A DNA stretch of 64,000 bases, from the NCBI RefSeq assembly GCF_900048895.1, contig NZ_LT160639.1, forward strand, positions 315,001 to 379,000, read 5' to 3'. Of this stretch, positions 54,485 to 64,000 are shown one piece after another. The notes beneath the pieces were generated by a model. The model worked only from the letters and a program-made list of their open reading frames with translations. It did not search any database and was not told the origin of the DNA. This DNA comes from Neglectibacter timonensis. Lineage in GTDB: Bacteria > Bacillota > Clostridia > Oscillospirales > Acutalibacteraceae. The first letter of the stretch is position 1. Each line of letters begins with the position of its first letter. Both the position numbers and the translations under genes were made by a program.

Positions 54485-54506
54485 AAAACGGAGAAACTCC
54501 CGTTTT
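54485..54506 (+). terminator. Possible terminator after the PHP gene
   Basis: AAAACGGAG (54485-54493) pairs with CTCCCGTTTT (54497-54506) with one bulge; no long T run. Likely end of the chromosomal GH125-PHP unit. Confidence 0.4.
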
Positions 54507-54571
54507 GGAGCGTTCACTTAGGGATTATTGAAAACAATGATAATTTTTGAGTGACGTCCTCAAGCGGTGCC

Positions 54572-54620
54572 AACAGAAAGACCACACAACAGGCTACAGA
54601 GTCTGTTGTGTGGTCTTTTT
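54572..54620 (-). terminator. Terminator R1 after the DUF6809 gene
   Basis: A 16-bp stem (54577-54592 with 54603-54618) with T runs on both strands. Its sequence is homologous to the terminator at 54974-55022 (about 38 of 48 aligned bases by eye). Confidence 0.9.
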
Positions 54621-54625
54621 CTGCT

Positions 54626-54907
54626 TTAGGCATCCTCACCGCTGTCCATCAGCGTGGCGAGCATAAGCCTACCGCCGAGCCGAAAAGCATAGGAGAATAT
54701 CTCCAGTTCGATCAAGCCGTACATTTCATTGACGCAGTCATCGTATTTTTCAAGCGTCTCCTGTTGTTCCGCTGTCATAGAGTCATGTAGACGATCCCGG
54801 TTACGTCCCATCAGTTTGATCAGTTCTTTAATTGCCCGGTTGCTTTCCTTACTCTGTTCCTGGGGATTTATATTCCCGTACCAGAACTCTTCCAGTATGT
54901 TGCCCAT
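54626..54907 (-). CDS. DUF6809-like small protein, 93 residues
   Basis: Small, all-helical, acidic protein (MGNILEEFWYGNINPQEQSK ... FSYAFRLGGRLMLATLMDSG). The motif set matches the small proteins annotated DUF6809 that are common in Firmicutes mobile elements, as far as I recall; function unknown. The start follows a near-perfect AAGGAGGTG. Bracketed by two homologous terminators, so it forms its own cassette at the left end of the mobile region. Confidence 0.78.
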   Translation of the reverse strand: MGNILEEFWYGNINPQEQSKESNRAIKELIKLMGRNRDRLHDSMTAEQQETLEKYDDCVNEMYGLIELEIFSYAFRLGGRLMLATLMDSGEDA

Positions 54908-54973
54908 ATCGCACCTCCTTGCAGCGAGACACTATGCCATAGACGGTGCGATTAGTCCAGATAACAAACTGTG

Positions 54974-55022
54974 AACAGAAAGACCGCACAACAAGTTGCG
55001 AAATCTGATGTGTGGTCAATTT
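54974..55022 (-). terminator. Terminator R2 of the defence operon
   Basis: GACCGCACAACA (54982-54993) pairs, with wobbles, with TGATGTGTGGTC (55006-55017). Lies just beyond the AlbA_2 gene stop; paralogue of R1. Confidence 0.75.
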
Positions 55023-55030
55023 TTACTTAA

Positions 55031-56173
55031 TTATTTAGTATCGTGTGTATTCCGCCACTCTTTGAGGAGTGCATTAAGAGCAACACCTGTTTTCAGACGC
55101 TCCTTATAAACCTCTGTTTTCCTGTCTGAGCCGGTACTGATGTGGTCGAATCGTGTAATCTCGCTGATTTTGTCGCTCAGTAAGTTCTGGTGCCCTTCGA
55201 TATACACCTCAAAGGCCAGTCTTTCCTCGTCCGAGCGATAGAATAGCACAACATCTTGGAGGTGCATAAAAGCATAACGATGATCACTGTTTTGAGGATC
55301 ATATAAGAACCTTAAGATTCTATATCGCTTGCTACCACCGACATAATATTTATAAGTGTATTTGTGGTGCAGACCATATTCGTCATGACATACATACCCC
55401 CAAGTGGGCGTAGGAATCTGCAATCTACCGCCATCAAGAACGACAATCTGATACGAGTCGAGGATTGTAGTCTGGTACTTGATGTTTAATTCATCATAGG
55501 AAGTATTGGAATTCGGCATGGCATAGGCATAGAACTCTGCGTCCAAATCATCGTCATTAGGATGTATTTCTATCGTGTATTCTGGGCGATAAACATTGTA
55601 ATACCTATTATCGGAAGTAGTCCATTCTGCTTTGTTATGTAGCCGATCATAGATATATTCTAATGGGGGTTTGGTAAGACCCAGTCTTTTTCGCCACAAA
55701 TTCTCTATATCCGTCACATCAGCATTTCCGTTATCCGGTGTGTTCTTGTCGCCCGTCCGAGTATAAATACACCATGGACGCATCTGCCCATACTGTTTCT
55801 TTAAATAAATGGGTGTGTTTTCAACATTGAAGATAGTCAGCACATCCAATTCAACACCATCAAAAACGATGGTCTTTACTTCCACAGTAGGATACACATC
55901 CCCTGCAAAAATGAGATTTGATATAGAATCGATAATATCTGCCTGTTTCTTTCTCGGTTTTTGCATACCTTTGATTTCCAGGTTGTCGGCTACACCAAAA
56001 ATCAAATAACAGTTTTCATCGTGTACAGTGTTGGCAAAGCAAACGATGTCCTTAATCAAATCTGCAATATTCTCATGCCACTCTTGCTTGAAATCCCAGC
56101 AGTCACCTTCTTTGCCTTGTTCAAGGAAAAAGCGAATAAGGCTATCCATTGAGTAGTATTGAAATTTGGACAC
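55031..56173 (-). CDS. AlbA_2/Schlafen-like domain protein of the defence operon
   Basis: 380 residues. The N-terminal 160 residues resemble the AlbA_2 (Schlafen-like) nucleic-acid-binding fold: EGDCWDFKQEWHENIADLIK then FANTVHDENCYLIFGVADNL, and VYPTVEVKTIVFDGVELDVL. The remainder (about 165-380) is not recognised; it is rich in Tyr and aromatic beta-strand patterns and has no ATPase motif. GTG start after AAGG. It is the last gene of the leftward R-M/Shedu operon, 24 bases behind the DUF4263 gene. AlbA_2 proteins recur in phage-defence loci, but a specific role here is inferred. Confidence 0.75.
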   Translation of the reverse strand: MSKFQYYSMDSLIRFFLEQGKEGDCWDFKQEWHENIADLIKDIVCFANTVHDENCYLIFGVADNLEIKGMQKPRKKQADIIDSISNLIFAGDVYPTVEVKTIVFDGVELDVLTIFNVENTPIYLKKQYGQMRPWCIYTRTGDKNTPDNGNADVTDIENLWRKRLGLTKPPLEYIYDRLHNKAEWTTSDNRYYNVYRPEYTIEIHPNDDDLDAEFYAYAMPNSNTSYDELNIKYQTTILDSYQIVVLDGGRLQIPTPTWGYVCHDEYGLHHKYTYKYYVGGSKRYRILRFLYDPQNSDHRYAFMHLQDVVLFYRSDEERLAFEVYIEGHQNLLSDKISEITRFDHISTGSDRKTEVYKERLKTGVALNALLKEWRNTHDTK

Positions 56174-56197
56174 TATCAGTACCTTCTTTGTTCATTA

Positions 56198-57196
56198 TTA
56201 AAACGGAAGGGAATCATAATCCTCCTCGTCATCATCTGGATCAGAAAGACCGAGCAGCTGTTTTGCTCGCAGTAACAACTGGTCATATGTAATGATGTGA
56301 AGTTGATGATATGCCGAATTCAAAATACGGAGAGCACGCATCTTATCTTCGCCCCAATCGTCAGAGCGTCCATACACCAACATACATTGTGGCTTTACAG
56401 TCTTTGTTCCGTCCACACGTTCCATAAATTCTACGGAATTGGATTGAAGTTCAATTCTGTAGAGGTAATTTAAGCACTGGGAAATTGCCGCAGTTAGCTG
56501 AGCAGTGGGATAATAATTTCCATGGGAATCTGGCCCTGCCCAAAATTGCAAATCAGGCCGTTTAATTTCTACAACATCAAGAAATCCGTCTATTGAACGC
56601 ATTAGGTAGTCAGCAATGTCGTTGGTATCAATATCTCTCTCCGGCAAAATGTTGAGGTAATCTGAACCAAGTACCCATTTGTTTTGAGAGAACCAATTCT
56701 GCCAAAACGATTCCGTCCTCTCTACATCAATTGCATGTTCAAATTCTTGGACTGCATTATTCCGTTCTGCAGCAGTGATCGCTACGGTAAGGTTTTGCGT
56801 CAAAATACCGGATTCGATCAACTTAGATACAACCTCATCATCAGAGATGCCTAAATCACGCACCTTGGTAAATAGCTTGGCTGCATCCTCATCTGCCTCT
56901 ATGAACTCAGTCATACCGATATTCAGTGGGGTATAGTACTCTTGAATATATTCAATTAGTTTATCGATTTCTTCAGGCTTAAGAGTAATGGCTTTATCTT
57001 CCTTGGTTATCCATTGATTCCCAACTTTCTTCTGTCGAGCAATTTTAAGTGATACAATTTGCTCGCCGCTGGATTTATGGCAATTTCTAAAAAATACTGC
57101 TTTGCAAGCACTTCTGGGGCCAGATCCTAAAATGCAGGGTTCAACATACTCTTGGCCATCGGCTGTTTTACTTACATTTTTCCACTCTTTTGCCAT
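56198..57196 (-). CDS. Shedu-like DUF4263 nuclease
   Basis: 332 residues. The C-terminal half is a PD-(D/E)XK-type DUF4263 domain: WFSQNKWVLGSDY leads to the catalytic core with D207, E210 and K212 in DGFLDVVEIKRPD, followed by the helix glutamine in AISQCLNYLYRIE. This is the nuclease domain of the single-gene Shedu (SduA) anti-phage system. The N-terminal 150 residues are not recognised and may be a sensor. ATG at 57196 lies six bases after GAGAGG. Sits 21 bases behind the HNH endonuclease gene within the R-M operon, which is not the usual stand-alone Shedu setting. Confidence 0.82.
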   Translation of the reverse strand: MAKEWKNVSKTADGQEYVEPCILGSGPRSACKAVFFRNCHKSSGEQIVSLKIARQKKVGNQWITKEDKAITLKPEEIDKLIEYIQEYYTPLNIGMTEFIEADEDAAKLFTKVRDLGISDDEVVSKLIESGILTQNLTVAITAAERNNAVQEFEHAIDVERTESFWQNWFSQNKWVLGSDYLNILPERDIDTNDIADYLMRSIDGFLDVVEIKRPDLQFWAGPDSHGNYYPTAQLTAAISQCLNYLYRIELQSNSVEFMERVDGTKTVKPQCMLVYGRSDDWGEDKMRALRILNSAYHQLHIITYDQLLLRAKQLLGLSDPDDDEEDYDSLPF

Positions 57197-57217
57197 AAAA
57201 AACCTCTCAATACTGAG

Positions 57218-58429
57218 TTAGAAATTGAACTCTATTCCAGTCAGAACAGCACCGAAATCGTATTGCGGTAACGCTCCGAAATAATCTGTTTCCAAACCGA
57301 CATCCAAAACATACATAAAATCCGCAAAATCATAAATCACAGGCTCACCGTGATTATCCATGAGATTCTTCCGTATGCTATCGGTTTTAGCGATGAGGCA
57401 AGTGTACTGATAATCCTTGTCGATTGCAGATGTGTTTCCGTTAGGATGCGCCTTTTGCAGATGCTGACCACTCGTCAATGCAATCAAATTCTCCAGGTAC
57501 TCTGCAATCTCCTGATACCGATGTTTCGGGAAAATATGATGCATATGCGTAGCCTTTTCTCCAACAGAAAACCGGTCCAGAATTTCGGATTTTCCATCAT
57601 TGTATTTGTCATTGAACTGCCGCAAATACTTTATTGCTCTGGATACACGGTACTGGTACTCATCGTCAGTCTGGGCAACGGGAACAAAGTCTCCTCGTGC
57701 CACATTTTTATCCTTGCCCGCCGCATCATCACGCCAATTGGTCTGATTATAAATGATCTTATCATATGTAATCATGGATGGAGATATTTTCCCCTTGGCG
57801 GTGCCTTTCTTGTGGTATTTACAGGCCAGAGGATTGAGAACCTTGGTGAAAATTCTGCTTGCCTCCACAGCGGTGTTGATGGGGGTGTACTTAATGCAGA
57901 AAGCTGCAAAGGTATCCTTGAGGCTCTGAAGAGCATCATTTGTCTGCTCGTCGAAGAATGTCTCAAAACTGTCCCACAGCCCACTATCTTTCAGTGTTTT
58001 CTCGATGTAGAGGCACAAAAAGTCAAAAGCATTTCTCTCCCGAAGTGCGATATACTGCAGGATGTCCATATTGGCAACGCTAAATTGAATGGTATTGCGA
58101 ACAACGCCGTCCTCACGCAATACGCCTGCGGCAGCCAGCATTTTCATTGGTTGCCGGAAGAACTTGTTATATTCATCCAGAGTAGTTCGGCGCAGTGGGT
58201 CGGGTTTGCAAAAAATATTTTGAACGTTCGTAATGGCATATTCCGACTTCCAAATATTTGGAGACTGAAACGGCTGACTGCCGCCGCTCTGAATATAGTC
58301 CATAATACAGTCAGCAACGAAGCATACGGCATCAAAAGCACATTTCTGGTCAATCCAACGGCCATTGCCTGAAATACGGACATCATAATTTCGTTCTTCT
58401 AAAAACCTCGATACAAGATTATTATTCAT
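57218..58429 (-). CDS. HNH-family type II restriction endonuclease (putative)
   Basis: 403 residues. The only clear domain is a C-terminal HNH nuclease: His pair at 297-298 (MHHIFPKHRY), Asn at 314 (LENLIALTSG) and His at 323 (GQHLQ). The N-terminal 280 residues, probably DNA recognition, match nothing I know. The start codon overlaps the methyltransferase stop by eight bases, the coupling expected for a cognate R-M pair. Recognition sequence unknown; the fused m5C/m6A methylase suggests an asymmetric site, as in the Alw26I/Eco31I/Esp3I group, but homology to those nucleases was not shown. Confidence 0.78.
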   Translation of the reverse strand: MNNNLVSRFLEERNYDVRISGNGRWIDQKCAFDAVCFVADCIMDYIQSGGSQPFQSPNIWKSEYAITNVQNIFCKPDPLRRTTLDEYNKFFRQPMKMLAAAGVLREDGVVRNTIQFSVANMDILQYIALRERNAFDFLCLYIEKTLKDSGLWDSFETFFDEQTNDALQSLKDTFAAFCIKYTPINTAVEASRIFTKVLNPLACKYHKKGTAKGKISPSMITYDKIIYNQTNWRDDAAGKDKNVARGDFVPVAQTDDEYQYRVSRAIKYLRQFNDKYNDGKSEILDRFSVGEKATHMHHIFPKHRYQEIAEYLENLIALTSGQHLQKAHPNGNTSAIDKDYQYTCLIAKTDSIRKNLMDNHGEPVIYDFADFMYVLDVGLETDYFGALPQYDFGAVLTGIEFNF

Positions 58430-60923
58430 CTCTTAGCACCCCGTAATAATACACGCTATTATTGTCGACATTAATTGACTGAGTAGACAGATTCCGCGCA
58501 ATCCCATAAAACCGTCTGTACTCCTCGGACGAAAAGAACGCCTTTTGCTTCGCTGTTAATCGGAGATCTTCCTTTGGAATGAGTACAGCTACAGAGCCAT
58601 CAGGAATCGTATTTGGCAAATTGTCAATGACCCGCGGATTATAGGTCATGTTCGGAGTTAGGTACACCCGTTCATTGTTTACAAACTGAGATGCCGACAC
58701 AGTTTCAGCAATCTGCATCGGAAGATATACATCGTAATCCGGTATATGTGTTATGCCCAATCCATCGTCATCAATATTTCTGGCTTTAATGACCCACAGG
58801 CAATTGCCATTCGATTTTGCAACGGTATTTGCTTTGGTGATCTGCCTATCTCGGAATACAGTAAATACATCAAATCGGAGTTTTTTTGCGACCTCATCAA
58901 ATTGTTCATCGCGATAAATCACGAAGGAGGGGTACGCCGGATCGGTAAGATACTCCTGACTACGGGTATGCTGCATATTGTACTTCATACTATAAACAGT
59001 CGTGTCCTTTGGCTTTTGCCGAGGATAGATAATCATACACATGGTTTCAATAGAAACCCCGGTAAAGCCATACCGCCCAAAATCAATAATGCTATCAATC
59101 TTTACTGTCCGCAAATAATCTCTTGTTTGGGTGTATTCTTCGGATGCAAGGATATTCTTGTTCAAGACCAAAGAAACACAGTCGCTACAACGAATACACT
59201 TTTCCAAGAACATTGCTGCTAAGTTGTTCGTTTTCTGATTGACATTTGCTTTCAATGCCTCTGCAATAGCAGGAGTTTTCTTCTTCAGCTTGGAGAAAGG
59301 CGGGTTTCCAACAGCCAGGTCATATCTATGCTCTGGTTGCCAGGTGATAAAGTCATGACAGATTTGATTGATAGTGAAATTGGCAGGTACGCCGATTCGG
59401 TTCAGCAGGAGAGAAAATGCTTCCAGGCTTGCTGGGTCAATATCGACCACATCAAGGATTACATGGGGAACATTTTCATACTGCTTGAACAGAAATGGAA
59501 TAAAACTTCCTGCTCCAACAGAAGGCTCCAGGATACGAATTTCTTCCTTATTGAACACAGGAAGTCGTCCCATAATTTCATTTACGATAAACTTATTCGT
59601 ATAAAATGCCGCATTCTTTTCCCTGTGTGCATTGCAGAGTTCTGTGATCCTCATCAGAGAAGCAATGTCCAAATTGAGCGGATTGTCCCTCAAAAATACA
59701 ATCAGATTGTCTCTTTCTGCAAGGTTGTTGTCTGCAATGATGCGGTTAATCTCGGCTGCATCGCTCCGTTTCGTTTGCATTGCCGCTTTAATACGGCCAG
59801 CAATTTGGCGCATAATCTCTGTAGGAACAGCCTCACCGAGGCATTGACGGATATTTACTTCATGCTCTTTATATACTTTCCGTTTCTCAACATCACTCAT
59901 TGCATTGAGTTCATCAATTGAATAGTCGACCCACCTAAAAGAATGCGGTATGGTCATCATATCCATAAGTTCCCTGATGCTGAACACACGATCCTGCTCT
60001 GGGTGGACGGTATTCTGTGCTGCAAGCTGATCGTTACGAGTATGAACACATTGAACGAATCTGTCCCAAGGTTGCCGCGTGTACTTGTCTCTATTTTTGC
60101 GAGCGTTTTCGACCCGCTTACCATCAACTATACGATGTGGCCGTTTTGCAGGATCGGCATTATCAAACGCAGATTCACTCTCTTTCAAATCATGAATCCA
60201 GGGGCGCATAGCAGGATCGTATGTTCTGAACGCATGATAAAAGTCACTTTGGCTAATTTCGCCCCACTCCAGTCGGGGGTAATCAAAAATAACCTCTCTC
60301 AATGTTTTTTCAGGCCTAAAGCTGGGATATAAATCAAACGGTGTGATATTGTTTCTATATTTTTTACTGACACCAATCATCAGAGTTCTCGTTCTGGAAG
60401 AATTAGAACCATAATTCATAAAGTTAAGAATTCTTCCGGAAATGATATATTCGGCACCCAATGCACTTCTGATGTACTCACCAATAGGCATGACCTGCTC
60501 ATCTGGGGTGATGCACAATGTTTTTTGGAATGCCATTACATTTTCAAAAACAAAGAAACGGGGTTTAATCCGGTTAATAATCTCTACAGATTCAACTACC
60601 AAGCTATTTCTGTTGATCTCCCGATCATTCTTTTTATGATTGATGACACTAATGCCCTGGCACGGAGGGGTTGCAATAACCACATCAATGCCATCATTGC
60701 CCATCTTTTCCCACTTGTCGATTTCATCATATATCTTCTGCTTAATTGCTGACTGCGTAATATCGCCAGGAATGTAGCCGGAGTTCAGTTTGCATTTTTT
60801 ATTTACACGTTGCACATCCATGCGTCTCGATAAAAGTTCATTGGTTGCAACACATTCAAATCCTTCCATGTGGAATCCATAGCAACCAACACCTGCCGAA
60901 CTGAACAGGGAAATGTATGTCAT
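58422..60923 (-). CDS. Fused DNA cytosine-C5 / adenine-N6 methyltransferase
   Basis: 833 residues with two complete methyltransferase domains. The N-terminal m5C domain (about 1-386) has motif I FSSAGVGCYGF, motif IV TPPCQGIS with the catalytic Cys at 88, motif VI FENV, motif VIII SRTRT and motif X AVPTEIMRQIAG. The C-terminal gamma-type m6A domain (about 430-700) has motif I EPSVGAGSF (466-474) and motif IV GNPPFS (about 539-544), then a presumed recognition region. Such fusions methylate C on one strand and A on the other of an asymmetric site. ATG at 60923 follows AAAGGA; an upstream in-frame Met would overlap the regulator gene. Base composition is AT-richer than the chromosome to the left. 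Confidence 0.92.
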   Translation of the reverse strand: MTYISLFSSAGVGCYGFHMEGFECVATNELLSRRMDVQRVNKKCKLNSGYIPGDITQSAIKQKIYDEIDKWEKMGNDGIDVVIATPPCQGISVINHKKNDREINRNSLVVESVEIINRIKPRFFVFENVMAFQKTLCITPDEQVMPIGEYIRSALGAEYIISGRILNFMNYGSNSSRTRTLMIGVSKKYRNNITPFDLYPSFRPEKTLREVIFDYPRLEWGEISQSDFYHAFRTYDPAMRPWIHDLKESESAFDNADPAKRPHRIVDGKRVENARKNRDKYTRQPWDRFVQCVHTRNDQLAAQNTVHPEQDRVFSIRELMDMMTIPHSFRWVDYSIDELNAMSDVEKRKVYKEHEVNIRQCLGEAVPTEIMRQIAGRIKAAMQTKRSDAAEINRIIADNNLAERDNLIVFLRDNPLNLDIASLMRITELCNAHREKNAAFYTNKFIVNEIMGRLPVFNKEEIRILEPSVGAGSFIPFLFKQYENVPHVILDVVDIDPASLEAFSLLLNRIGVPANFTINQICHDFITWQPEHRYDLAVGNPPFSKLKKKTPAIAEALKANVNQKTNNLAAMFLEKCIRCSDCVSLVLNKNILASEEYTQTRDYLRTVKIDSIIDFGRYGFTGVSIETMCMIIYPRQKPKDTTVYSMKYNMQHTRSQEYLTDPAYPSFVIYRDEQFDEVAKKLRFDVFTVFRDRQITKANTVAKSNGNCLWVIKARNIDDDGLGITHIPDYDVYLPMQIAETVSASQFVNNERVYLTPNMTYNPRVIDNLPNTIPDGSVAVLIPKEDLRLTAKQKAFFSSEEYRRFYGIARNLSTQSINVDNNSVYYYGVLRDE

Positions 60924-60945
60924 GGTCTTATCCTTTAACAATGCG

Positions 60946-61170
60946 TTACACCTCCCCCTTGTCATCGTTCATGCATTTGTGTTCCATAATATCCCCAAAG
61001 TCACAGTCAAGGACATCACATATTCTACCAAGGATAGCTAAGTTGACCGCTTCATCCCGGCGCATTTTGGTCATAGTATTAGGGGCAATTCCAGCTTCTT
61101 TCCGCAATTCGGACTGACTCATTTTTTTATCAATCAGAAGTTTCCATAAACGATTATATGAAACAGACAT
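60946..61170 (-). CDS. XRE-family regulator, likely controller of the R-M operon
   Basis: 74 residues: a compact Cro/C1 HTH (MSVSYNRLWKLLIDKKMSQS, then ELRKEAGIAPNTMTKMRRDE, ending DFGDIMEHKCMNDD). ATG at 61170 follows CAGGAGG; the longer frame covers the promoter and is not used. Lies 22 bases before the methyltransferase start. Controller (C) proteins of R-M systems have this size, fold and position and delay endonuclease synthesis after entry into a new cell; here that role is inferred. Confidence 0.85.
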   Translation of the reverse strand: MSVSYNRLWKLLIDKKMSQSELRKEAGIAPNTMTKMRRDEAVNLAILGRICDVLDCDFGDIMEHKCMNDDKGEV

Positions 61171-61201
61171 ACTATGCCTCCTGTAAAAGTCGTATATCAA
61201 T

Positions 61202-61255
61202 ATTATAGCGACAAAATGTGAATTTTTCAAGATGCAATCGCAAATATATGCGATT
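61202..61255 (-). promoter_or_regulatory. Promoter and palindromic operator of the defence operon
   Basis: Leftward -35 TTGAAA (61225-61230), 17-bp spacer, -10 TATAAT (61202-61207). AATCGCA (61236-61242) and TGCGATT (61249-61255) form a palindrome beginning six bases upstream of the -35, a position suited to activation by a C-type protein. Confidence 0.75.
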
Positions 61256-61281
61256 TCCAAACAGATTTCATATGCTATTTG

Positions 61282-61336
61282 TCCCTGTGTCAGAAATGAC
61301 ATGGGGATTTTTTGTTTTACCTGGCAAAAAATCCCC
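61282..61336. promoter_or_regulatory. Two mutually exclusive hairpins at the defence-operon boundary
   Basis: TCCCTGTGTCA (61282-61292) pairs with TGACATGGGGA (61297-61307), followed by a run of six T, a rightward terminator. The same GGGGA also begins a 12-bp perfect inverted repeat, GGGGATTTTTTG (61303-61314) with CAAAAAATCCCC (61325-61336). No rightward gene lies close upstream to need a terminator. Confidence 0.6.
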
Positions 61337-61340
61337 GCCG

Positions 61341-61740
61341 CCGTGACTAAGTAGTGAGAAAAAATACTCTCTCCAACGGGGTTCGATTCGGACGAATTTT
61401 TCGCTTATAGGCAGAGGAAAGAAACATTTTTGATTTTCGTTGAAAAAGCGGCGTTCTCATGTCCGGTGGTGAGCGAAGAGAGAAAATTTCTAAGTTCTCT
61501 GTTCAAACCGCAATCTCACCTCCAGTGGGTAGTGGGGGTTGACATTTTTCCCATGTAAGCGAAGGCGGCAGAAAATTCATATAAAAATATGATTTTCTTC
61601 GTCAAAACGCTTCTCCCATCTCCAAAGAGGAATAGAGGGAAGAAAATTTCCAAAGTTTTCGGCCAAACCGAGATCTGACCTCCAGTGGTTAGTGGAAAGG
61701 GATTTTTCCTCAACCATCGTCAAAACGGCTCCTTGCTGAC
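61341..61740 (+). repeat. Degenerate ~160-bp tandem repeat array upstream of the primase gene
   Basis: Corresponding blocks recur with a 159-160 bp period: TGATTTTC at 61431 and 61590, GAAAATTTC at 61483 and 61642, and CCTCCAGTGGnTAGTGG at 61519 and 61679. A partial earlier unit (GGCAGA..AAA, about 61411) and a partial later one (CATCGTCAAAACGGC, about 61726) extend it. No open frame with a ribosome site is seen. Location just before a replication protein suggests an origin or a family of small RNAs; neither is proven. It accounts for most of the 61171-61791 gap. Confidence 0.7.
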
Positions 61741-61791
61741 CAAGTGCTAACTGTAAGGGGCAATACACAAAATCGAAAGGAGGCACACACA

Positions 61792-64000
61792 GTGCAAGTT
61801 CAATTAGAAAAAATACCGCAGTATTTAAAGGACAACGGCCAGTTCTGCAACTGGAGATATGAACTGCGGGACGGCAATCAGACCAAGGTGCCGTATATGT
61901 CCGGCACAAGACGCAAAGCCAATGTGGATGACCCGACCACATTCACAGCCTTTGAGACTGCGGTATCCGCAACAGGCTATGACGGCATCGGCATCCGTGT
62001 CTGCGGCCGGATCGTGGGTATCGACCTGGACCACTGTATCGAGGATGGCAAGCTGCTCCCGTGGGCGCAGGCCATCGTAGACCGCTTCGGTGCGACCTAC
62101 ATCGAAATCAGTCCCTCCGGCGAGGGCATCCGCATTTTCTGTCTGCTGCCGAGCGGCTTTGAATACGATACCCAGACCTATTACATCAAAAAGGGCAACA
62201 TCGAGGTCTACATTCCTGGTCACACCAACAGATTCCTCACAGTGACCGGGAACACCATCAACGGCGCAGATGTGACGGAAACGGGAGAATCTCTCGTTTG
62301 GCTGCTCGACACCTATATGCGCCGCCCCACACCTTCGACTGCCGCCATTGCCATTCCCAACGAAAGCTACCTCAGTGATGATGCTGTGATTGCTAAAGCA
62401 TCCGCTGCCCAGAACGGTGAAAAGTTCAAGCGGCTCTGGAACGGTGACATCACCGGGTACAAGAGCCAAAGCGAAGCGGATGCTGCATTGGTTTCCATCT
62501 TGGCATTCTGGTGCAGCGGTGATAAAGCACAGATGGACAGGCTTTTTCGACAGTCCGGCTTGATGCGTGAAAAGTGGGATTCCCTCCGTGGTGCTGGCAC
62601 CTACGGCAACATCTCCATCGAAAAGGCAGTCGCTCGAATGACCGACTACTACAAGCCTATCATCCCACGCTCTGCCGCCGAGGATTTCGGAGTGGAACGG
62701 CTGAAGGAACTTGATCCTATGGATTCCTCCAAATACCCGTGGAACGACATTGGCGCTGGTCACATCTTCGCTGACTTCTATCAAGACAGACTGCGCTATG
62801 TGCCGGAGCGGAAGATGTGGTTTCACTATGAAAATGGTGTATGGCAGCCGGATACCGGCAATCTCCGTGCGATGCTCTACTGCATGGAACTGGCTGACCT
62901 CATGTACACCTTCGCCCTTGAGATAAGGGACGAGGATAAGCGTAAATCCTATATGAAATACGCCAGCCGATGGCAGAGCCACTCCAACCGGGTCAATATT
63001 CTCAAGGATGCTCAAGTATATCATCCCATTCCATACGGCAGCTTCGATGCGGACATCTACATCTTCAACTGCAAAAACGGCACTCTGCATATCGACACCG
63101 GGGAGTTCACCGAACACCGCAGCACCGACCTTCTCACCAAGATCAGTCCCGTGGTGTATGACCCAACAGCCTACTCGGAGCGTTTCGGCACCTACATTGA
63201 TGAAATCATGAGCGGTGATACCGACAGAGCCAAGTTCCTGCAGAAGATCCTCGGCTATGGTCTTACTGGAGACACCCGGCACGAATGCATGACCATCCTC
63301 TACGGCGTGACCACACGCAACGGCAAAGGTACCCTCTGTGAAAGCGTACTGAAGGTGCTTGGTGACTATGGCTGTGCCTCCCGCCCGGAGACTATCGCCA
63401 TGAAAAGCTACACCAATGGCTCACAGCCCAGCGAGGATGTGGCTCGGCTTGCCGGTGTTCGCTTCGTAAATATCCCGGAGCCAGGAAAAGGAATGGTGCT
63501 GGATGCCGCCAAGGTTAAGGCTATGACCGGCAACGATACCCTCAATGCCCGTTTCCTTCACGAGAACAGCTTTGACTTCCAACCGCAGTTCAAGATCTAT
63601 GTGAACACCAACTTCCTGCCAGTCATCAACGATATGACCTTGTTCTCCAGTGACCGCATCATCATTATCCCGTTTGACCGGCATTTTGATGAGCAGTCCC
63701 GTGATACCACACTGAAACGCCGCTTTGCAGAGGAAGGTGTCCAAAGTGCCATCCTCAACTGGCTGTTGGAGGGATACCGCTTGCTCCAGAGCGAGGGAGT
63801 ATTTCTCCCTAAGTCCGTAAAAGATGCCACCGACCGCTATCAGCATGACAGTGACAAGATGGCACTGTTCTTTGAGGACAACCTGGTAGCAGATGAAACG
63901 GCAGAGGAACTGACCTCCACGGTCTATGCCCGGTATAAGGGATGGTGCCAGGAGAACGGATGCTACCCGGAGAGCATGAAGAACTTCAAGCAGGGACTGC
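61792..64000 (+). CDS. Phage/plasmid P4-type primase-helicase, C-terminus cut by window edge
   Basis: The frame from GTG 61792 is open to the right edge (736 residues). An archaeo-eukaryotic-type primase/polymerase domain comes first, with metal-binding GIDLDH (D78, D80) and SPSGEGIRIF (about 107-116). A D5-N-type linker follows, then an SF3 helicase with Walker A GVTTRNGKGT (about 505-514) and Walker B region VRFVNIPEPGKG. Typical proteins are 750-800 residues, so little is missing. GTG is nine bases from AGGAGG. This is the replication protein of many Firmicutes prophages and integrative elements and marks the region as mobile. Confidence 0.92.
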   Translation, partial: MQVQLEKIPQYLKDNGQFCNWRYELRDGNQTKVPYMSGTRRKANVDDPTTFTAFETAVSATGYDGIGIRVCGRIVGIDLDHCIEDGKLLPWAQAIVDRFGATYIEISPSGEGIRIFCLLPSGFEYDTQTYYIKKGNIEVYIPGHTNRFLTVTGNTINGADVTETGESLVWLLDTYMRRPTPSTAAIAIPNESYLSDDAVIAKASAAQNGEKFKRLWNGDITGYKSQSEADAALVSILAFWCSGDKAQMDRLFRQSGLMREKWDSLRGAGTYGNISIEKAVARMTDYYKPIIPRSAAEDFGVERLKELDPMDSSKYPWNDIGAGHIFADFYQDRLRYVPERKMWFHYENGVWQPDTGNLRAMLYCMELADLMYTFALEIRDEDKRKSYMKYASRWQSHSNRVNILKDAQVYHPIPYGSFDADIYIFNCKNGTLHIDTGEFTEHRSTDLLTKISPVVYDPTAYSERFGTYIDEIMSGDTDRAKFLQKILGYGLTGDTRHECMTILYGVTTRNGKGTLCESVLKVLGDYGCASRPETIAMKSYTNGSQPSEDVARLAGVRFVNIPEPGKGMVLDAAKVKAMTGNDTLNARFLHENSFDFQPQFKIYVNTNFLPVINDMTLFSSDRIIIIPFDRHFDEQSRDTTLKRRFAEEGVQSAILNWLLEGYRLLQSEGVFLPKSVKDATDRYQHDSDKMALFFEDNLVADETAEELTSTVYARYKGWCQENGCYPESMKNFKQGL

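Follow-up and report, generated by a model that had tools for sequence, protein, structure and literature searches.

The closest described relatives of the locus reported here are HpyAV and Hin4II, restriction-modification (R-M) systems of Type IIS. The HpyAV methylase is a fusion of a C5-cytosine and an N6-adenine (N6A) methyltransferase, and the restriction gene behind it encodes an HNH nuclease (PMC2816704). Among other defence systems, DNA-end sensing is given for Shedu and Gabija, end binding is suggested for Lamassu, and the trigger of Hachiman is a phage single-stranded DNA-binding protein (review PMC12904381). A survey of BREX places Schlafen RNases among the back-up effectors (PMC12839542). 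Here we analyze a 64,000-nucleotide (nt) stretch of the Neglectibacter timonensis genome (contig NZ_LT160639.1, positions 315,001 to 379,000; called the window and numbered from its first letter), in which an HpyAV-like pair lies between a leader gene on one side and a Shedu gene and a Schlafen-type gene on the other. We consider it probable that these genes are co-expressed but independent defence layers, carried as cargo of a small integrative element.

Five minus-strand genes are tightly packed, with intergenic gaps of 4, -8, 21 and 24 nt according to the open reading frame (ORF) calls and family matches, which bears out the original prediction of five leftward genes that overlap or stand at most 24 nt apart. 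The operon unit spans ~54982-61253 and comprises, from its upstream end:

61238..61253, unstranded: operator-like palindrome TCGCA-N6-TGCGA, 7 bp upstream of the -35 box
61202..61230, minus strand: promoter-like site TTGAAA-17-TATAAT, 11 of 12 matches
60946..61170, minus strand: helix-turn-helix (HTH) leader or controller of the HTH_26 (Cro/C1) type, 74 amino acids (aa); Pfam HTH_26 73.7 bits; start placed from the promoter position and a GGAGG site
58422..60941, minus strand: fused C5-cytosine and N6-adenine methyltransferase, 839 residues; TTG start at 60941, or ATG at 60923
57218..58429, minus strand: HpyAV-like HNH restriction endonuclease; PADLOC REase_II PDLC03488 428 bits; H297 H298 N314 H323
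56198..57196, minus strand: SduA, Shedu nuclease with a PD-(D/E)XK-like motif (E210, K212); PADLOC SduA PDLC00385 408 bits, Pfam SduA_C 82.5 bits
55031..56173, minus strand: Schlafen AlbA_2 protein, PADLOC PDC-S50, GTG start at 56173; PDC-S50 422 bits, SLFN_AlbA_2 51.9 bits
54982..55017, minus strand: moderate hairpin followed by T-rich sequence, the likely operon end; fold -12.2 kcal/mol

Every part belongs either to a known family or to a named family of PADLOC. The R-M system of controller, dual methylase and HNH nuclease that had been proposed from the letters alone is upheld by PADLOC and Pfam matches and by the residue spacing of HpyAV, and the family matches also agree with the claim that two proteins from separate defence contexts accompany it. 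The methylase matches PADLOC MTase_II (PDLC03277, 848 bits) over nearly its whole length and contains the Pfam domains DNA_methylase and Eco57I. In the HNH protein, which falls under the Pfam HNH cut-off and had no significant match in a solved-structure search, the catalytic residues are spaced exactly as H294 H295 N311 H320 of HpyAV. A fused C5 and N6A methylase, a codirectional HNH gene behind it and an identical H-H-N-H spacing are thus common to this locus and HpyAV/Hin4II (PMC2816704). The present locus differs by two extra defence genes and by an HTH leader that has an operator of its own; the comparison uses published residues and gene order rather than direct sequence alignment. At this level genes 1-3 resemble an HpyAV/Hin4II Type IIS R-M system. 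In two Acinetobacter plasmids each methylase half has a gene of its own and the HNH gene comes next, an arrangement also reported for Hin4II, and a Psychrobacter plasmid carries a fused methylase with the HNH gene ~2 kb off on the opposite strand. No methylase relative was found in viral contigs with a single-protein query, which reaches close relatives only.

The product of gene 4 combines an SduA_C domain with PD-(D/E)XK residues (the motif was read from the sequence) and is like Shedu (SduA) in both respects as well as in its PADLOC match. It is unlike Shedu in being the fourth gene of an R-M operon, and its match to a solved SduA is limited to residues 76-317. DNA-end binding by a clamp at the N-terminus is a further mark of Shedu. 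The product of gene 5 matches SLFN_AlbA_2 and, over nearly its full length, PDC-S50; we take the PDC prefix in PADLOC to mark candidate families. Residues E22, D27 and K29 are invariant across ten aligned sequences, gene 5 included, and are presumably the Schlafen nuclease catalytic residues. A solved-structure search for the AlbA_2 protein gave nothing significant (best match E 0.11), and a literature search for PDC-S50 with PADLOC found no paper.

We compared the locus with its relatives in a genome-collection scan that returned 325 methylase relatives, of which the best 80 were studied as loci. These come from 79 genomes (one genome contributes two loci, L088 and L099; L086 is the G156 contig). 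An HNH homologue is present at 76 of the 80, within 600 nt at 75, and relatives of SduA or of the AlbA_2 protein at none (tblastn, E <=1e-4). At least 2.5 kb are available beyond the HNH gene in 66 loci; in the other 14 the absence of genes 4 and 5 says little. One locus (L078) has a Shedu protein of another clade, detected by profile alone. The exact five-gene set was seen at the present locus alone, at 0 of 80 methylase loci. Among 398 genomes of the family, the methylase occurs at E <=1e-60 in three, the own genome included; G156 has the HNH gene and not the last two genes, and G021 has no HNH relative. DNA homology to the near relatives L039-L043 (70-73%) ends at the HNH stop, 57214-57225, and on the upstream side reaches no further than the leader gene or the start of the methylase. 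Because the homology stops at the HNH stop codon, we read leader, methylase and HNH as a conserved module to which genes 4 and 5 have been added. The original prediction of an undescribed composite system had named co-occurrence across genomes as its test in advance; with HNH at 76 of 80 loci, close SduA and AlbA_2 relatives at none and a single divergent SduA found by profile, a fixed five-gene system is not what the comparison reveals. At L011:14413-16794 the methylase is followed, where the HNH gene would be expected, by a 74-aa and a 793-aa protein (GHKL-type ATPase by eye); L115 and L117, also without HNH, have genes similar in size to those of L011.

The position behind the HNH gene, here called the slot, is filled differently elsewhere. 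Codirectional with the HNH gene and no more than 60 nt behind it stand GajA and GajB (Gabija, 13 nt, L067), LmuA and LmuB (Lamassu-type, 36 nt, L068), HamA and HamB (Hachiman, 9 nt, L073), a three-gene set of LmuA/LmuB type (59 nt, L041), a truncated relative of that set (30 nt, L043), PDC-S58 (22 nt, L045) and a second C5 methylase (4 nt, L044). The other-clade Shedu of L078 (350 bits) follows a 104-residue gene, and most remaining loci have housekeeping or unknown genes in the slot (by eye). The succession of Gabija (L067), Lamassu-type genes (L068, L041), Hachiman (L073), SduA (L078) and PDC-S58 (L045) argues for swappable cargo. The grouping had been predicted to be accidental if homologous pairs almost never carried the two downstream genes; close relatives of genes 4 and 5 are indeed absent from the 80 loci, but unrelated complete defence systems occupy the slot in a few other loci and PDC-S50 relatives occur in other R-M operons (one of them read by eye), which speaks against pure accident. 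A recurrent small family is also found behind HNH (L071:13820-14116, L078:12525-12839, L093:6689-7096 and others). Its members measure ~100-135 aa, up to 170; three scanned members have no Pfam match, and blastp matched the family to HNH-domain proteins in L053, L055 and L057.

Defence genes are nearest neighbours at 9 of 29 downstream positions vs 5 of 20 upstream (p 0.45), and enrichment of the slot over the upstream side was accordingly rejected. Since the two frequencies do not differ, a defence gene in the slot is explicable by ordinary defence-island clustering. Seven of the downstream nine are PADLOC-positive (L041, L045, L050, L067, L068, L096 and, through its second gene, L073), L043 was counted because it is homologous to L041, and L044 on a Pfam match. 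The downstream count is a loose one: PADLOC was run on part of the 29, likely defence genes first, and the remaining genes (e.g. SDR, GNAT, glycosidase) were counted negative by eye or Pfam. On the upstream side 20 of 30 eligible genes were scanned, and two of the five matches (L045, L046) are weak and partial. Genes were called with a simple ORF script (table 11), which may have misread loci of mycoplasma type (L066, L095 and perhaps L093).

The leader has the features of a controller (C) protein as far as these can be read from DNA: it is small, of HTH type, and accompanied by a conserved palindrome at the promoter of its own gene. The palindrome occurs once in the window vs 0.11 expected. 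Among 18 other leader homologues (L004, from the own genome, and the L171 leader lie outside this set), it stands 80-103 bp upstream of all five with >=59% identity and within 150 bp of none of the 13 with <=52% identity; the fetched loci, 3.29 Mb in all, contain it six times, and five of these copies are the ones upstream of leader homologues. The promoter scan as a whole gave 17 sites vs 18.1 expected in shuffles and is without statistical weight. As its total matches the shuffle expectation, the conserved operator beside the promoter site is the better evidence. A leader start at 61170 is more likely than one at 61302, because the promoter falls inside the longer ORF. One relative of the carrier element, L195, combines the palindrome and a leader of 72% identity with other cargo (PDC-S41), so leader and palindrome are not specific to HpyAV-like R-M, and the leader probably regulates the cargo promoter irrespective of the cargo.

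The two added genes were followed separately. SduA_C occurs once in the own genome, as the slot copy. It exceeds the cut-off in 2 of the 79 genomes behind the 80 loci (G819 and G839; a match in G858 is below the cut-off): in G819, the source of L078, the gene is in the slot after the single 104-aa gene, and in G839 it lies on another contig beside a helicase. HamA exceeds the cut-off in 2 of 50 genomes, once in the slot (L073); in the other genome (L052) the methylase contig stops inside HNH, and the short contig with HamA shows no HNH. These numbers are small, and a family search with a loose first look may miss members. Relatives of gene 4 were found in two other genomes of 391 in the class (L138, L139), with no R-M gene recognized near the one in L138.

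PDC-S50 matches at E <=1e-15 were found in 11 of the 391 class genomes, the own genome included. Seven other relatives are full or near-full (L029-L035; L029 and L030 are a near-identical locus and L035 is split over two frames), L036 and L037 share the C-terminal half only and have an HNH-like N-terminus, and L038 is a fragment. A C-terminal half common to proteins with different N-termini suggests that the AlbA_2 protein is an effector plus a sensor. In L034 the PDC-S50 relative ends a Type III R-M operon, behind its methylase and restriction genes (PADLOC), and in L031 it follows a Type I methylase (operon type read by eye). Plasmids gave 24 records with a PDC-S50 match. Nine of their contexts were inspected, using an incomplete table of plasmid genes, and in no case was an annotated R-M gene the direct neighbour; in two of the nine a methylase gene lies 1.6-1.8 kb away. 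From these chromosomal and plasmid contexts it follows that PDC-S50 occurs alone or in several R-M operon types. Most inspected relatives lie outside R-M operons, unlike the present fifth gene of one. No PDC-S50 relative stood beside a P0002, P0003 or P0004 homologue among the fetched loci, none was found in phages, and none in viral contigs with a single-protein query that reaches close relatives only. The proteins with an AlbA_2 C-terminal half and an HNH-like N-terminus (by eye) are at L036:4789-5796 and L037:9683-10687, the latter beside apparent Gabija genes.

The reading of independent layers takes as its frame the gene identities, the catalytic spacing, the module border at the HNH stop, the operator conservation and the element context. 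Within this frame, the HTH_26 leader would bind the palindromic operator beside its own promoter and set the expression of what would be one transcript. At an asymmetric site, predicted to be CCTTC, the fused methylase would mark C in one strand and A in the opposite one, and the HNH enzyme would cut unmarked DNA, together forming the first layer. Two co-transcribed single-gene effectors would stand in the second line, the Shedu PD-(D/E)XK nuclease and the PDC-S50 protein, which is probably an RNase of Schlafen type equipped with a C-terminal sensor of its own. The layers would be tied by co-expression yet act independently, which is argued by the 0 of 80 loci with close SduA or PDC-S50 relatives and by the plasmid PDC-S50 genes that do not adjoin R-M (0 of 9). 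The back-up role offered earlier for genes 4 and 5 is conjectural.

The layers might instead form a coupled two-tier device, in which the double-strand ends made by HNH are attacked by an end-sensing Shedu and the AlbA_2 RNase is a last resort when restriction is blocked or evaded, the part that the PrrC anticodon nuclease plays in a Type I locus. Types given or suggested as end-sensing (PMC12904381) do sit behind the HpyAV-like pair in L041, L067, L068, L078 and here, PDC-S50 does occur in other R-M operon types (L034 and, by eye, L031), and in BREX primary nicking has been proposed as a signal for auxiliary nucleases of the same operon (PMC12839542). BREX is like the present locus in having extra PD-(D/E)XK nucleases and Schlafen RNases inside a modification-based operon (PMC12839542); the present locus differs in having a Type IIS R-M pair as its core, and the pairing is not conserved. 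Of the defence-positive loci, 6 of 10 downstream have end-sensing candidates or Hachiman vs 0 of 5 upstream (one-sided p 0.042; the count omits L044 and adds second-gene matches in L057 and L078), but this contrast was chosen after the data were seen, is a lead only, and weakens to 5 of 10 (p 0.084) without Hachiman, whose trigger is a different one (PMC12904381), and to 4 of 9 (p 0.126) when L043 is also left out. Defence-positive nearest neighbours, moreover, are no commoner downstream than upstream. We regard the coupled device as unlikely. A broader version would make the slot a functional docking place: ends produced by restriction would trigger the second layer, which is Shedu here and in L078 and Gabija or a Lamassu-type system at other loci, a Schlafen-type RNase would be the last resort, and one leader and operator would govern them all on a family of mobile elements made for such cargo. 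Hachiman in L073 fits this version less well, and we think it a long shot.

Quite unlikely, in our estimate, is that the genes are accidental defence-island neighbours hitch-hiking on one element, possibly with separate transcripts or in decay. The five-gene set in 0 of 80 loci and the similarly defence-rich upstream and downstream neighbours are what such an accident would give. Against it, all five frames are open, the checked motifs are intact, and the spacing is operon-like, our scan having detected nothing promoter- or terminator-like within the gaps of 21 and 24 nt; from this spacing a single transcript for all five genes is inferred.

Several findings nonetheless weigh against independent layers around an HpyAV-like core. 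SduA_C, rare in these genomes, lies behind the R-M pair in 2 of the 3 found with a copy over the cut-off (own, G819, G839), and with two of three genes in the slot, plain independence needs less linkage than is seen. The SduA relative of L139 has a C5 methylase gene ~0.7 kb away on the opposite strand, and 3 of 8 chromosomal PDC-S50 genes are in R-M operons (the window counted, L031 by eye). The HNH partner is not universal, as it is missing in 4 of 80 loci (L097, L110, L115, L117) and in G021. Recognition of CCTTC with 6/5 cleavage is a mark of HpyAV/Hin4II-like systems; here the CCTTC specificity is only predicted, and the window has 201 such sites vs 200 expected, which is uninformative; avoidance of CCTTC was rejected as a specificity test on this count. 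No paper on this gene grouping was found in the literature searched, whose coverage of subscription papers and preprints is thin. Were the layers coupled, systems that have so far been studied on their own would have restriction as their sensor step, and the question of how DNA-end-sensing nucleases are directed at the invader would gain a testable answer. Without coupling, too, the locus is a concrete case of compound-defence assembly, in which a conserved R-M core is joined to an interchangeable tail under one operator and on one mobile carrier, and it gives PDC-S50 a repeated R-M context.

The operon rides on an element with the following parts:

54499..64000, unstranded, right end beyond the window at ~68553: integrative element with the operon; contig C1 overlaps; primase, HK97 head protein, serine recombinase
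61744..64000 and on to 64110, plus strand: element primase, divergent from the operon; PHROG 1829 DNA primase 508 bits

Its borders at ~54499 and ~68553 are those up to which both ends of contig C1 (L127, 12.6 kb) overlap contig C13, by 132 and 127 bp; this overlap at both borders suggests a second copy or alternative arrangement of the element. In the other arm, mostly past the window (the right part of the element is in L008), the primase is accompanied by small ORFs, the gene of an HK97 major head protein and that of a large serine recombinase. Of the traits of a phage satellite, which is induced and packaged by a helper phage, the element thus shows a primase and a head gene; no packaging gene was recognized by eye among the element ORFs, four of which, in the right arm, were scanned. 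GC content is 41-44% in the five genes vs 53% in the in-window part of the primase, the window being at 51%. At least 20 fetched loci have a head-gene relative and then a recombinase within 3 kb, the scan with the head-gene alignment having kept the best 80 of at least 572 confirmed matches. The left arm is visible in 11 relatives, nine loci cut at the left edge being omitted (L128, L136, L137, L190, L196, L198, L201, L202, L204). Six of the 11 carry R-M or methylase cargo by library matches (L129, L130, L171, L172, L199, L200; 7 of 12 counting the window), L195 and L197 have PADLOC candidates (weak in L197, 62 bits), L170 and L194 have Type III pieces by eye only, with L194 not divergent, and in the left arm of L191 no R-M or methylase cargo was recognized. 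The element is like the P4-like satellite hotspots in being small and integrative, with a primase and interchangeable defence genes (PMC9122126), and unlike them in its large serine recombinase, lone HK97 head gene and placement of defence genes in a divergent arm (PMC9122126).

Two further features lie past gene 5:

54626..54907, minus strand: DUF6809 gene, outside the operon; Pfam DUF6809 73.6 bits; 123-nt gap to gene 5
54576..54619, unstranded: strong near-symmetrical terminator with a 20-pair stem; the stretch 54560-54640 folds at -39.0 kcal/mol

DUF6809 was considered as an operon member and rejected, as it lies 123 nt past gene 5 with the hairpin at 54982-55017 between. The originally predicted span of 54626-61302 is therefore too wide at both ends, taking in DUF6809 on the left and, on the right, the longer leader ORF that contains the promoter. 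Of the predicted single promoter and single terminator, the former holds as one strong promoter-like site; the strong terminator follows DUF6809 rather than gene 5, and the moderate hairpin is nearer the operon end. Two terminator-like direct repeats (54572-54626 and 54974-55028, 78% over 55 bp) flank the DUF6809 gene, and 55-bp direct repeats (82%) at 61481-61535 and 61641-61695 lie between the leader gene and the element primase.

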